Shown in pieces: positions 1,530-7,650 of a DNA stretch of 41,212 nt (the stretch's first letter is position 1; the number at the start of each line of letters is the position of its first letter). A program made the translations under genes and the position numbers. Source of the DNA: a virus; IMG/VR virus record IMGVR_UViG_3300012984_000013, positions 77,581-118,792 of that record, one strand, 5' to 3'. The notes under the pieces are model-generated. The model was given only the letters and a program-made list of their open reading frames with translations, was not told the DNA's origin and searched no databases.

Positions 1530-1737
1530 TTCTCTTGACTATGTATTTGATTACTATGTAAATAGTGATGTACATAAGGATAAAGAGAAGTTGAGTTATG
1601 AGCAATTTTGGTTTGCTTTCAGTAAATGGCCATTTGCTCAGATTACAGCAGATATTCTGACTCAATATTATGATCATCTCTATACTATTGTTAAAGTAGA
1701 AGATCTCAAAAAAGGCATAATTTTAAAGTATATATGA
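1516..1737 (+). CDS. Hypothetical protein, 73 aa
   Basis: A small protein rich in aromatic residues (Y-D-Y-Y, F-W-F-A-F-S-K-W-P-F) with no recognised domain. Two in-frame ATGs exist; 1516 is preferred over 1492 because it shortens the overlap with the preceding gene from 38 to 14 bases. The stop overlaps the helicase start as ATGA, which suggests translational coupling. It ends in L-K-Y-I, resembling the K-I-K-Y-I end of the helicase, but that is probably an effect of AT-rich ATGA junctions. Confidence 0.65.
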   Translation: MRNNNSLDYVFDYYVNSDVHKDKEKLSYEQFWFAFSKWPFAQITADILTQYYDHLYTIVKVEDLKKGIILKYI

Positions 1738-2813
1738 GTAAGCAAACCGAATTACAAGACCAATTTGCCAAAAAAACAATAGATTTCTTTAAATCTAATA
1801 AGCATGGCTTCGCAAATTTAAGTATTCGATTTGGTAAAACCAGATATGCTATAGAAGTACTAAAAGCTCAGTTTAGTAATTGTACAGTATTACTCTGTTA
1901 TCCAGATAATCTATTAAAGGATAGCTGGATAGCAGAGTTCTCAAAATGGGAATATAGTAATCCTAACGTAGTATTTGTTAACTTCTCTTCTTTACATAAA
2001 TATAAAGATAAGGCTTTTGATTTTATAATATGTGACGAATTTCATAGTTGTTCAGACTTGGAGAGAGACTACTGTCACCAGATAATGACCAATCATAAGG
2101 ATACCAAATTCTTAGGGTTATCAGGAACTGTAAGTAGTGAAACTAAAGGAGAATGGGGACTTAAGGAGATAGTTAAGTATACTACTGATGAAGCTATTAG
2201 AGATGGAGTAGTTGCTAATTATCAGGTTACTGTCCATTTAGTAAGTCTTGACAACAAAATCAAGACTCCTAATAGTAAGGGTAAAATGTTGACTGAAAAA
2301 CAAAGGTATGACAACTATTCTTATGTTATAGATAAGATGATAAAGGATGGTAGGAATTCTATGCACTTAGCTCTTACCAGGAATAGACTATCATTATCTT
2401 CTATTGGAAAGATAGAGTATACTAAAAAGCTACTTAAATCTCTATCTGATAAAAGAGTTATAGTATTTACAGGGTTAAATAAAGTAAGTGATTCTTTAGG
2501 TATATGTTCATATCATTCAGAATCTGCTGAAAATAGTACTTTTATGAACTTCATAGAAGGTAGAATAAACCAATTAGCTTTATCTGCTATGGGAAAAACT
2601 GGTATAACATATCCCTTGCTTGATAGTGTAATTTTACTTAACTTTACATATAATAAAGAGGAAAGTAGTCAAATTCTAAACAGAGCTATAAAACTAGACT
2701 ATAACGGTAAAATAGCTGATCTTCATGTAATTTGCCTCCAGGAAAAGGCGGAGCTTAAAAAAGTTAAAGAATCTCTTAGTATGTTAGATCCTTCCAAGAT
2801 AAAATATATTTGA
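1734..2813 (+). CDS. Superfamily 2 helicase (DEAD/DEAH-like ATPase)
   Basis: A compact 359-aa superfamily 2 ATPase. Motif I is a variant Walker A (S-I-R-F-G-K-T-R at residues about 30-37), motif II is D-E-F-H at 101-104, motif III is S-G-T at 130-132, and the C-terminal RecA lobe holds Q-I-L-N-R-A, in the place of motif VI. This supports ATP-dependent unwinding or translocation on nucleic acid, probably in replication or recombination; it is short for the class and has no accessory domains. The start is an ATGA overlap with the preceding gene. The last 15 residues (K-E-S-L-S-M-L-D to K-I-K-Y-I) recur at the end of the following endonuclease gene. The helicase does not couple by ATGA to its neighbour, as most genes here do; that junction now belongs to the endonuclease. 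I infer that the current 3' end was supplied by the inserted element. Confidence 0.88.
   Translation: MSKQTELQDQFAKKTIDFFKSNKHGFANLSIRFGKTRYAIEVLKAQFSNCTVLLCYPDNLLKDSWIAEFSKWEYSNPNVVFVNFSSLHKYKDKAFDFIICDEFHSCSDLERDYCHQIMTNHKDTKFLGLSGTVSSETKGEWGLKEIVKYTTDEAIRDGVVANYQVTVHLVSLDNKIKTPNSKGKMLTEKQRYDNYSYVIDKMIKDGRNSMHLALTRNRLSLSSIGKIEYTKKLLKSLSDKRVIVFTGLNKVSDSLGICSYHSESAENSTFMNFIEGRINQLALSAMGKTGITYPLLDSVILLNFTYNKEESSQILNRAIKLDYNGKIADLHVICLQEKAELKKVKESLSMLDPSKIKYI
2766..2813 (+). repeat. Helicase 3'-end tail, copy 1 (recoded)
   Basis: The last 15 codons and the stop of the helicase. Copy 2 is at 3911-3958. The two 48-base copies encode the same 15 residues except P-S versus Q-T (13 of 15 identical). 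Only 31 of 48 bases match, and both Ser codons that are conserved switch between the TCN and AGY families. Confidence 0.85.
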
Positions 2814-2818
2814 TTTTA

Positions 2819-2850
2819 TTTGTTTATTAATATAAATTAGCATATATTTG
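2819..2850 (+). promoter_or_regulatory. Bacteroidota-type promoter for the LAGLIDADG gene
   Basis: TTTG at 2819-2822, then exactly 20 bases, then TATATTTG at 2843-2850. This fits the Bacteroidota consensus TTTG (-33) and TAnnTTTG (-7). It lies in the 59-base gap between helicase and endonuclease, 22 bases before the endonuclease ATG, so the element probably carries its own promoter. Confidence 0.7.
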
Positions 2851-2872
2851 CAAGTATATGTTAAAATAAGCT

Positions 2873-3958
2873 ATGAAAAGATCAGAAATAAAAGAAGATG
2901 ACTTGGTAAGTGACTACTTGAAAGGACTACCTTTCTATAAATGCTGTATTAAGTATAAAACTTCAGAGAAAAGGATACGAGAAATATTATTAAGAAATAA
3001 TATTACAATTAGAAATAAATCAGAATCTTTTGGAATAACAAAAGAAGTAGAAAGTAGTATTGTAAATTCATATACAAACCTTAGAAAAAGTCAATATTTA
3101 ATAAGTAAAGAATTAAATATACCACATGAGACTATTTCTAATATATTAAAAAGAAATAATATCAAGATAGAAAAATGGCAATATAATGTAAATCATAATT
3201 TTTTCCAAGATATAAACACTCCTGAAAAAGCATACTTCTTAGGTTGGATGATAAGCGATGGTTGTAATAAAAGTAAGGGTATCCATATAAATTTGCAGAA
3301 AAAAGATGAGTTCATTTTAGAGATTTTTAAAAAAATAATAGAGTATGAAGGACCTCTATATTATCAGAAAGGAAGATGTCTAAATTGTGATGATCTAGTA
3401 TCATTGGTCATATATTCTACTAAATTATCCGAAGATCTATCTAAATTAGGTATAGTACCAAACAAGTCTCATTATACATATTTCCCTGATATCCCTGAAG
3501 AATTATATCCTTATTTTATAAGAGGAGTATTTGAGGGAGATGGTACAATTTCCCAAATTGGGAATGGTGTTTATAGAGTAGGATTTTCAGGTACTTTTAA
3601 ATTAATGAGTGATATTCTACAAGTATTAATAAAAAAATGTGATATAAATAGCCTAAAAGTCTCCAGAGTAGGAAAACAGACTACTCACACCTTAATTATT
3701 TCAGGGTCTTATCAAGCACTAAGAGTAATGAATTACTTATATAAGGATAGATTAGATTTAGTCTTAAAAAGGAAATATGAAAAGATATTTAGTATAAATC
3801 CTGGGTTAAAAAGTATATTTTACAATAATATGATTTACTCTATAAATGAAGTAGCTAGTAAATTATCAAAAAATAAAAACGACAGACTGAAAATTTTAAG
3901 AAAATTAAGGAAAGAGAGCTTATCTATGCTCGATCAAACTAAAATTAAATATATATGA
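2873..3958 (+). CDS. LAGLIDADG homing endonuclease with helix-turn-helix N-terminus
   Basis: A 361-aa protein. Residues about 1-105 contain two helix-turn-helix-like units (S-E-K-R-I-R-E-I-L-L and P-H-E-T-I-S-N-I-L-K) that would bind DNA. Two LAGLIDADG helices follow, Y-F-L-G-W-M-I-S-D-G near 120 and Y-F-I-R-G-V-F-E-G-D-G near 218, each ending in the acidic metal-binding residue, so it is a single-chain two-motif enzyme cutting double-stranded DNA at a long site. Residues about 310-345 look like a further small DNA-binding unit. The last 15 residues repeat the helicase C-terminus and end in an ATGA overlap with the next gene, so the original helicase tail appears fused in frame to the endonuclease. 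It has its own promoter. A simple group I intron is unlikely because the upstream helicase is complete without splicing. Confidence 0.88.
   Translation: MKRSEIKEDDLVSDYLKGLPFYKCCIKYKTSEKRIREILLRNNITIRNKSESFGITKEVESSIVNSYTNLRKSQYLISKELNIPHETISNILKRNNIKIEKWQYNVNHNFFQDINTPEKAYFLGWMISDGCNKSKGIHINLQKKDEFILEIFKKIIEYEGPLYYQKGRCLNCDDLVSLVIYSTKLSEDLSKLGIVPNKSHYTYFPDIPEELYPYFIRGVFEGDGTISQIGNGVYRVGFSGTFKLMSDILQVLIKKCDINSLKVSRVGKQTTHTLIISGSYQALRVMNYLYKDRLDLVLKRKYEKIFSINPGLKSIFYNNMIYSINEVASKLSKNKNDRLKILRKLRKESLSMLDQTKIKYI
3911..3958 (+). repeat. Helicase 3'-end tail, copy 2 (probable original)
   Basis: The last 15 codons and stop of the endonuclease frame, encoding the same peptide as 2766-2813 apart from Q-T for P-S. 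The stop forms ATGA with the gene at 3955, the junction type most common in this operon. I infer that this is the remnant of the original helicase 3' end. Confidence 0.8.
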
Positions 3959-4167
3959 CAAGTAGAGATTTTTGTTATTGGATGCAAGGATTTTTTGAGA
4001 TTCAAAACCCTGAAAGTATAGAAAAAGATAAAGTAGAAATGATTAAGAAACACTTAAATCTAGTATTCAAGCATGAAATAGATCCTTCTATGGGAGATGA
4101 AGAACATCAAAAAGCTTTGAATAAGTTTCATTCTACAGGTAAATCAGATGTAGTAATAAGATGTTAA
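3955..4167 (+). CDS. Conserved phage protein of unknown function, 70 aa
   Basis: The start is an ATGA overlap with the preceding frame. The N-terminus M-T-S-R-D-F-C-Y-W-M-Q-G-F-F-E and the segment L-N-L-V-F-K-H-E-I-D-P are typical of a small protein family that I recognise from many Bacteroidota phages, where it has no assigned function. The fold is probably all-helical, and no membrane segment is present. The family usually appears near replication genes. Before the insertion it would have been translated directly after the helicase, which suggests a functional link. Confidence 0.8.
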   Translation: MTSRDFCYWMQGFFEIQNPESIEKDKVEMIKKHLNLVFKHEIDPSMGDEEHQKALNKFHSTGKSDVVIRC

Positions 4168-5107: not shown

Positions 5108-5986
5108 ATGGAAAAAACGAGAGAACAACTGATTAAAGATTACAAAAAAGCTAATCAAGGTAGGAAAGTACAACTTGCTAGGAAAGCAGGATTTAATAGT
5201 GCTAGTGACTATCTTAAATATTTACAAAGTGCGAGTCCTGCTAAAAAGACTAAAATTAAGGTAAAAGAAACTCCTAAGAAGGAAATGTTGGATTATGTAG
5301 TAGCTTTTGATACTACTGGTAGTATGGCATCTTATCTTGCAGATGTTAAAAAACATGTAGAAAACCTTATTCCAGAGATGTTTTCACAAGATATCGATCT
5401 TAAAATGAAAATTATTGCTTTTGGAGACTATTGTGATATGACTTCAGATAAAATCTTTGGTAAAGCTTACCAAGAATCTAAATTTACTGATAATAAGGCT
5501 GAATTGATGAATTTTGTTAATTATGCACAAAGTACATCAGGTGGAGATTCTCCAGAGTTCTATGAACTTGTAATTAAGAAAATTACAGAAGAAACCCCTT
5601 GGAGAGATGGTGCTAAGAAAGCTGTACTATTTATTGCTGACTATGATCCGCACCCTGTAGGATATTCATATGGTAGTAAAGTAGAGAACAATCAAATTGA
5701 TTGGAGAAAAGAAGCTAAAAAAGCAGCAAATAAGGGTATTTCATTCGATACCCTTGCTATCCTTGGAGATAAATTTCCCTGGTATAAAGAATTGTCTCAA
5801 ATTACAGCAGGTGTATGGATGCCATTCCAATCATCTAATAAGATGAATGAAGTATTCAAAGCTTCTGCTTATGCTAGAGGATCAAGTAAGTCTAAAATGT
5901 CATTTGCTACAGCTTATACTGCTGCTGTAGATTCAGGAGATTCAGAATTAATTGGAACATATAAATCACTTTCAACACTTTTATAA
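5108..5986 (+). CDS. von Willebrand factor type A domain protein
   Basis: A 292-aa protein. Residues about 1-58 are a Lys-rich helical segment. From about 61 a vWA domain begins with D-Y-V-V-A-F-D-T-T-G-S-M, giving the metal-ion-dependent adhesion site D-x-T-x-S (68, 70, 72), followed by the later S-G-G-D-S-P-E-F loop typical of the fold. It probably binds a protein partner through a divalent cation. No signal peptide is seen, so it should act in the cytoplasm. It lies two bases after the Sak4-like NTPase gene. vWA proteins often work with AAA-type ATPases, and such ATPases are encoded here and at 15745, but a complex is only inference. Confidence 0.85.
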   Translation: MEKTREQLIKDYKKANQGRKVQLARKAGFNSASDYLKYLQSASPAKKTKIKVKETPKKEMLDYVVAFDTTGSMASYLADVKKHVENLIPEMFSQDIDLKMKIIAFGDYCDMTSDKIFGKAYQESKFTDNKAELMNFVNYAQSTSGGDSPEFYELVIKKITEETPWRDGAKKAVLFIADYDPHPVGYSYGSKVENNQIDWRKEAKKAANKGISFDTLAILGDKFPWYKELSQITAGVWMPFQSSNKMNEVFKASAYARGSSKSKMSFATAYTAAVDSGDSELIGTYKSLSTLL

Positions 5987-6792: not shown

Positions 6793-7650
6793 ATGGGAAT
6801 TAGTGGAAAATTAAGAGAAAACAATTTTGACAGCTTAGAAGTAGGACTTTTTTTAGCTGATGTAGTAGCAGTAAATCCAAGTATTGAAGAATTTAAGGAA
6901 ATTTTAGGTAGAGAACTAGATGCAGATAGTAAAGCTGCTGACTATCTAGGTGACAGTAAGGAAGGAAACATGACTGCTAGAATTGATTTTTGGTTGAAAG
7001 ATAAGCGAGAAAAGTTCAAAAAAGTGAGCTTTTTCTTGGAAAATAAGCTCAAAACTAATAAAGATAACACTAAAAACCAGTATATTAATACTGTAGGTAG
7101 CTGTTCTTGGGCTAGTGATGAGAGTCTTCTTCCAGATTGGTTTAAAAAACGAGAATACCGTCAAGCTTATGTAGGAGAAGAGGATTTATATCGATTTATG
7201 AGTACTTGGTTAGGTAAATTGGATTTTAAAGATGCTGATACTACTCTTAGTCTTGATTTTAAGAAGCTTATTAAAGGTAATGTTAAGGAAATCAAAGAAC
7301 AAATTGGTTCAGAATTAAGCAGTCCTGTAGTAGCTCTAGCTACTGTTAAAACAGTAGAAAAGGAAGATGGGGATAAATCCTATCAATCTGTCTATAATAG
7401 GGGATTTCTACCTGAATATAGCCTAAAACAGTTCAGATTAGTAGATTATACAAATGATGAAGTTATTGAGAATCTTAAACGTAAAGATCCTAAGAAGCTT
7501 ATGACACATGAGCGATTTGTGCTTCAGGTAACTAATTCAGAGCATGGGGTTAAAGAAAGCTACATACTTAAAGATATCAAGGAATATAATCCTTCTGACT
7601 TCCTAGTAGGAACAGATAAGGTTATTTCTGACGATGATCCAGGATATTAA
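6793..7650 (+). CDS. Possible single-stranded DNA-binding protein, 285 aa
   Basis: An acidic protein with a mixed alpha/beta pattern and a strongly acidic end (S-D-D-D-P-G-Y), like the acidic tips through which SSB-type proteins recruit partners. It is the last gene before a strong terminator and sits in the same operon as the Sak4-like NTPase, a family known to act with an SSB. No OB-fold motif can be proven by eye, so the role is inference from tail and context. Alternatives are a structural or inhibitor protein of unknown class. The many scattered Trp, Phe and Tyr residues would suit base stacking. Confidence 0.72.
   Translation: MGISGKLRENNFDSLEVGLFLADVVAVNPSIEEFKEILGRELDADSKAADYLGDSKEGNMTARIDFWLKDKREKFKKVSFFLENKLKTNKDNTKNQYINTVGSCSWASDESLLPDWFKKREYRQAYVGEEDLYRFMSTWLGKLDFKDADTTLSLDFKKLIKGNVKEIKEQIGSELSSPVVALATVKTVEKEDGDKSYQSVYNRGFLPEYSLKQFRLVDYTNDEVIENLKRKDPKKLMTHERFVLQVTNSEHGVKESYILKDIKEYNPSDFLVGTDKVISDDDPGY

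Follow-up and report, generated by a model that had tools for sequence, protein, structure and literature searches.

The window analysed here is a stretch of 41,212 bases that occupies positions 77581-118792 of a 118,792-base virus record. It contains a helicase gene followed by a LAGLIDADG endonuclease ORF and a short third gene (Table 1). Between the helicase stop (2813) and the start of the endonuclease ORF (2873) there are 59 bases, so the endonuclease lies outside the helicase frame and is not an intein. The endonuclease ORF has a helix-turn-helix-like N-terminal part, and the helicase tail is fused at its C-terminus. It was assigned to the LAGLIDADG_3 family with a score of 30.7 bits against a cut-off of 22.5, and its ISDG and FEGDG motifs, each with an acidic residue, were aligned with those of homologues. 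The promoter-like motif in the gap is present in 3 copies in the window compared with 0.98 expected. It is weak and not significant when taken alone. The identical motif with the same spacing occupies the corresponding place (7067-7098) in contig L022, which carries a second example of this arrangement.

Table 1. Features of the helicase-endonuclease locus, in window coordinates.
Feature	Position	Strand	Evidence or sequence
Helicase, SNF2/ResIII-type, 359 aa, presumed target gene	1734-2813	+	PHROG 16 DNA helicase, E=4e-18; Pfam ResIII, 1.9e-7
Tail copy at the helicase (last 15 codons and stop codon), presumably the replacement tail	2766-2813	+	KESLSMLDPSKIKYI, then stop
Promoter-like TTTG-N20-TATATTTG in the helicase-endonuclease gap	2819-2850	+	Exact match
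LAGLIDADG endonuclease ORF, 361 aa	2873-3958	+	Pfam LAGLIDADG_3 (PF14528), 3.9e-7; PHROG 4645 endonuclease, 4.5e-47
First LAGLIDADG-type motif AYFLGWMISDGC	3230-3265	+	Conserved with L005 and staphylococcal phage homologues; acidic residue kept
Second LAGLIDADG-type motif FIRGVFEGDGTI	3515-3550	+	Conserved with L005 and staphylococcal phage homologues; acidic residue kept
Tail copy at the end of the endonuclease ORF, presumably the native 3' end of the helicase gene after displacement	3911-3958	+	KESLSMLDQTKIKYI, then stop
Next gene, 70 aa, start overlaps the endonuclease ORF stop (ATGA)	3955-4167	+	PHROG 28500, 9.6e-9

The helicase ORF ends with KKVKESLSMLDPSKIKYI and the LAGLIDADG ORF with KLRKESLSMLDQTKIKYI, each followed by the stop codon. 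The first-pass annotation, made from the letters of the window, had drawn attention to this shared tail, and its counts were reproduced. The last residues agree at 13/15 positions and the DNA at 31/48 bases if the identical preceding Lys codon is counted; without it, starting at the Glu codon and including the stop, 28/45 bases agree. At each of the two shared Ser positions one copy has a TCN codon and the other an AGY codon (TCT/AGC and AGT/TCT). The likeness is not due to chance, because the anchored C-terminal score of 62 compares with 23 reached by random pairs of a homing endonuclease gene and an upstream gene at the 0.1% level. In the 11 codons for the same residue, 20/33 bases match, where 25.1 ± 2.3 are expected if synonymous codons are drawn from the window's own usage (P = 0.023); the recoding goes moderately beyond random codon choice. 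The endonuclease copy, with the end ATATATGA, keeps the ATGA coupling to the gene at 3955, again as first noticed. The helicase copy ends with ATATTTGA in the stop context ATTTGA, and the ATGA overlap typical of the relatives is lost.

The helicase tail in related phages

Direct protein searches of viral_contigs with the window helicase and endonuclease yielded no close relatives. A degenerate DNA pattern for ESLSMLDxxKIKYI-stop identified five IMG/VR contigs; a helicase is visible in L002-L005, and L006 spans only the helicase end. The alignment of the window helicase with those of L002-L005 was then used as the query for an IMG/VR search, which recovered 37 loci with helicases 54-64% identical. 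ESLSMLDxxKIKYx is the conserved helicase end in about 35 related phage contigs, the majority of which have no adjacent endonuclease. Nearly all of the relatives' helicases end in K.KESLSMLD..KIK/N-[YF], and in most of them ATGA is shared with the next gene.

Because the tail peptide is the conserved, ancestral helicase end in the relatives, the endonuclease ORF of the window holds a second helicase 3' end. The homologous LAGLIDADG protein of L005 ends well before the tail stretch, so the tail is foreign to this endonuclease family. The concern that the peptide might be a common unrelated motif was dispelled, since all 32 pattern matches in IMG/VR were on contigs from the helicase search, either at the helicase end or at an ORF of the L022 type. 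The single GTDB match (L066) was inside an ORF of another kind and was set aside as chance.

The tails were compared over a 33-base core. The two window copies agree at 17 bases, while pairs of different relatives agree at a mean of 23.9 ± 3.3 and only 1% of pairs at 17 or fewer. Mean agreement with the relatives' tails was 23.3 for the endonuclease copy of the window and 20.5 for the helicase copy. A helicase tree calculated with the tails left out contains a 21-member clade (support 99/90) that holds L022 and excludes the window.

The helicase locus is a hot spot for endonuclease genes. In L042 (4942-6030) a group I intron (Rfam RF00028, E=1.6e-6 and 0.001) splits the same helicase, and a GIY-YIG ORF lies in that intron at 5221-5946. 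LAGLIDADG genes are found upstream of the helicase in L005 (3328-4269, immediately adjacent) and L038 (1771-2625); the upstream gene of L005 has no shared tail.

GIY-YIG endonucleases that end like the gene before them

The first-pass annotation had suggested looking for other LAGLIDADG genes whose ends match the preceding gene. Endonuclease genes with such ends were found, with GIY-YIG enzymes, at the helicase of the L022 group and at a virion gene.

In L022 the helicase has an altered tail (end EGLSLLDSSKIIWQY; longer stretch KEGLSLLDSSKIIWQY). A 325-aa ORF with the N-terminal start YYLYRHIRLDKNEPFYIGIGTK begins 36 bases after it. Alignment with L004 and L067 placed this ORF in the GIY-YIG family, whose member in L004 has a match to the homing endonucleases of PHROG 314. 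The ORF ends with the normal helicase tail KKESLSMLDENKISYIFG. The endonuclease copy, GAAAGTCTTTCAATGTTGGATGAAAACAAAATA, resembles the relatives' tails (mean core agreement 24.2), whereas the helicase copy, GAAGGGCTTAGTTTATTAGACTCTTCAAAAATT, is unlike them (19.9). The two copies agree at 17/33 core bases, a 1% value among pairs of relatives. The arrangement recurs in five contigs (L022, L023, L025, L027 and L041). The window and L022 are independent events, because their nucleases belong to different families and their helicases to different parts of the tree.

A total of 153 endonuclease loci, fetched with both nuclease families, were screened for ends matching the upstream gene. In L161 a GIY-YIG ORF ending in AQISYK was found behind a gene, here called gene X, that encodes a 288-aa virion protein (PHROG 15100) ending in VAQISYK. 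The search for gene X gave 80 loci. Among 58 distinct endonuclease-free alleles, 39 end in PAQISYK and 12 in PSQISYK (51/58 P[AS]QISYK). This end was seen in 0/7 distinct carriers; with labels assigned at random, the probability of this outcome was estimated by hand at about 5 in a million. The carriers instead end in VAQISYK (L161/L283/L299, L276), VTQISYK (L253), PSMLSYK (L157/L269), SAMLSYK (L158, L240) or GAMISYK (L159).

The native end of gene X is at the endonuclease. The endonuclease ORFs end in WK-AQISYK or SQISYK, except in L276, where the end has decayed to KEKISYK (84% against native alleles), and in L240, where most of the ORF is deleted. Where measured, the last 21 bases of the ORF plus the next 24 are 93-98% identical to native alleles, and the native next gene is joined to the native tail at the end of the ORF. 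The DNA behind the endonuclease varies among carriers and follows the local native alleles.

Alignments of genes that are about 96% identical reveal an abrupt breakpoint in gene X. Between L240 and the empty L239, identity is 96.6% in the body, 96.5% just before the end and 60% in the last ten codons. The corresponding values are 96.2, 94.7 and 53% for L269 and L261, and 96.6, 94.7 and 63% for L158 and L298. The bodies of L158 and L240 are 71% identical, their 30-base replacement tails are the same and their endonuclease starts are 88% identical. L161, L253 and L276 have bodies 74-76% identical, tails 90-93% identical and endonucleases 96-97% identical. Endonuclease-free pairs with equally diverged bodies reach a tail identity of 90% in 10% of cases and of 100% in 0.3%. 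Thus the tail travels with the endonuclease, as bodies only 71-76% identical are joined to replacement tails 90-100% identical and to endonucleases 88-97% identical.

Some loci appear to record the loss of the insert. In L240 (3868-4020) the endonuclease is mostly deleted; what is left of it is codons 1-39, followed by part of the native tail, and the replacement tail is kept. In L254/L255 a carrier-type GVA precedes a native-type QISYK and the native downstream gene, and no endonuclease is present, which looks like the scar of element loss by recombination between the tails. The gene X end is variable between endonuclease-free pairs too (74% in the last ten codons, with bodies 92-99% alike), and past invasions or another process may account for this.

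Gene X is present in the records of the window, L022, L161, L018 and L007, at 50-100% identity to L161. The helicase and gene X cases therefore sit in one phage group, which is distantly related to the Flavobacterium psychrophilum phages FpV4/Fpv1. Gene X of the window itself is uninterrupted, with the end PAQLSYK. Directly behind gene X in L284 (3921-4445), L292, L308 and L309 there is a different nuclease-like ORF (KYYGGRGIKVCNRW...DRIDNDGNYEPDNCRW...NNRRNN). No fused native tail was seen in the L284 ORF, which is another type of insert at the gene X end.

Several candidates were screened out. In L162 (2-1803) a tail-fibre-like gene ends in EQIVATK and the neighbouring GIY-YIG ORF in KIVATK. 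The DNA of the shared end is identical, so L162 was not counted as a fourth case and is listed as a candidate only, possibly an undiverged example. The GIY-YIG gene of L004, the LAGLIDADG gene of L005, gp41 of crAss001 and Flavobacterium phage GIY-YIG genes end differently from the gene upstream of them. The mirror case, an endonuclease with a spare 5' end, was also sought in the 153 loci and nothing convincing was found.

A probable homing element with a replacement gene end

We consider it probable that positions 2766-3910 are an intronless homing element that carries its own replacement for the helicase 3' end. Its parts would be the replacement 3' end, a short promoter-bearing spacer and the LAGLIDADG endonuclease gene. 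In phages without the element, the encoded enzyme would cut the helicase gene at its 3' end, and repair of the break would copy in the replacement tail, the stop, the spacer and the endonuclease. The recipient's own tail would be pushed downstream, in frame, to form the final 15 codons of the endonuclease ORF, where it would still start the next gene at 3955. The helicase would then end in the carried tail, which spells nearly the same peptide in different codons, so that the gene would work and the site would be gone. The divergence would also reduce recombination between the tails, which would delete the element.

That an element brings the 3' end of its target, as the first-pass annotation proposed, is strongly supported by the L022 group and gene X; for the window the direction of replacement is likely rather than proven. 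The endonuclease copy had been taken as probably the original helicase end, and this is still the likelier polarity in our judgement, given the ATGA coupling, the promoter-like motif that follows the helicase copy here as in L022, and the resemblance to the 21-member clade. It was also expected that an uninterrupted locus would exist. Relatives were indeed found in which a helicase with the conserved tail runs straight into the next gene, but their codon signals conflict. Endonuclease-free relatives with a tail of the 2766-2813 type had been named as evidence to the contrary. Among the seven on the window's side of the tree, 6/7 have codons slightly nearer to that copy, at about 60% protein identity, where such counts are weak.

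These relatives give some footing to the opposite polarity, which we judge unlikely. Here the helicase end would be native, and the endonuclease would have come from another phage lineage with the helicase tail of that lineage fused to its 3' end, and would have inserted behind the helicase stop. On this reading too the insert would be a homing element that had captured a tail, but no repair of the helicase would have taken place. L018, which has most genes behind the insertion in common with the window, matches the helicase copy at 26 of 33 core bases and the endonuclease copy at 20; L011 matches them at 26 and 22, and the tails of L009, L030, L007 and L038 are also nearer to the helicase copy. 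Moreover, the clade that the endonuclease copy (DQTKI) resembles is one to which the window does not belong. Against this, the closest endonuclease-free relatives of the window have about 60% protein identity, a distance at which synonymous sites are saturated and codon counts are weak. L016 and L018, sister helicases (100/98), have tails in very different codons, so relatives' tail codons are weak evidence either way; the L018 end may itself be an old replacement scar. The ATGA coupling is kept by the endonuclease copy and not by the helicase copy, and gene X, for which close relatives are available, clearly has the polarity that we prefer for the window.

A plain local duplication that came to lie behind an endonuclease by chance, or a misassembly of two contigs, is very improbable. 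The layout of the window rests on one contig, and L162 demonstrates that a gene and a neighbouring GIY-YIG ORF can have a common IVATK end in identical DNA. A fresh duplication or misassembly predicts identical copies, however, and those of the window are 65% identical; the layout also recurs in the five L022-group contigs and in seven distinct gene X carriers, which come from different contigs. Still less credible, to the point of being negligible, is a group I intron whose spliced and unspliced helicase mRNAs would have the two tails as alternative ends. The helicase of L042 is interrupted by such an intron with a GIY-YIG gene. A covariance-model search with E up to 10 detected that intron as a positive control (1.6e-6) but gave no signal at the insertion of the window or of L022. 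With 0 bases between the endonuclease ORF and the second tail, there is no room for an intron core.

Taking the helicase and gene X cases together, we think it likely that intronless homing elements shipping recoded 3' ends are recurrent in Bacteroidota phages. They would have entered the helicase at least twice and a virion gene repeatedly, with unrelated LAGLIDADG and GIY-YIG enzymes converging on the same layout, and rounds of invasion and loss would leave permanently rewritten ends as scars. Homing endonuclease genes usually spare the host gene by means of introns, inteins or intergenic sites. A working spare gene end that is no longer cut or recombined away would be a third way for phage homing genes, and its occurrence three times within a single phage group, with nucleases of two families, suggests a general solution. 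It was previously known from a few fungal mitochondrial genes, and phages allow simple cleavage and co-infection assays. Such elements would account for the abrupt change in the last few codons of some phage genes, and would be a natural counterpart to the recoded rescue copy of engineered gene drives.

Comparison with known systems

No end-replacing homing element in phages surfaced in the literature searched, coverage of which was incomplete, and keyword searches of a T4 review and of a 2023 study of phage homing endonucleases gave no mention of tail-replacing elements. The present cases are likely to be the first described in phages. Like the free-standing homing endonucleases of T-even phages (Seg, Mob; PMC2988022), they are intronless genes between phage genes. 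Keyword searches of that review gave neither a replacement tail carried for the target nor a target tail fused to the enzyme. Phage group I introns with GIY-YIG or LAGLIDADG ORFs use the same nuclease families, as in the L042 helicase. They differ in that the present elements are without intron RNA, and a spare 3' end rather than splicing would preserve gene function.

The closest parallel is found in fungal mitochondria, where mobile endonuclease ORFs (mORFs) with a foreign C-terminus were described in atp6 of Allomyces macrogynus (PMC3630166). In Glomus sp. the targets of mORFs are atp6, atp9, cox2 and nad3, and the ORFs are of the LAGLIDADG or GIY-YIG type (PMC3630166). As in the fungi, the window, L022 and gene X have a diverged, mostly synonymous target tail, then the endonuclease gene and a second tail behind it, and enzymes of both families are involved. 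For gene X in sibling phages it is the downstream tail, rather than that of the gene itself, that matches close empty relatives, as would be expected of the Allomyces/Glomus type. The phage cases differ from fungal mORFs in that they lie in phage DNA and the displaced tail, as the in-frame end of the endonuclease ORF, still starts the next gene, whereas the fungal tails are longer and some displaced ones are untranscribed (PMC3630166). The degree of divergence is similar: native and inserted tails of Glomus atp6 are 63.5% identical in nucleotides and 91% in amino acids (PMC3630166), compared with 65% and 87% for the two tails of the window.
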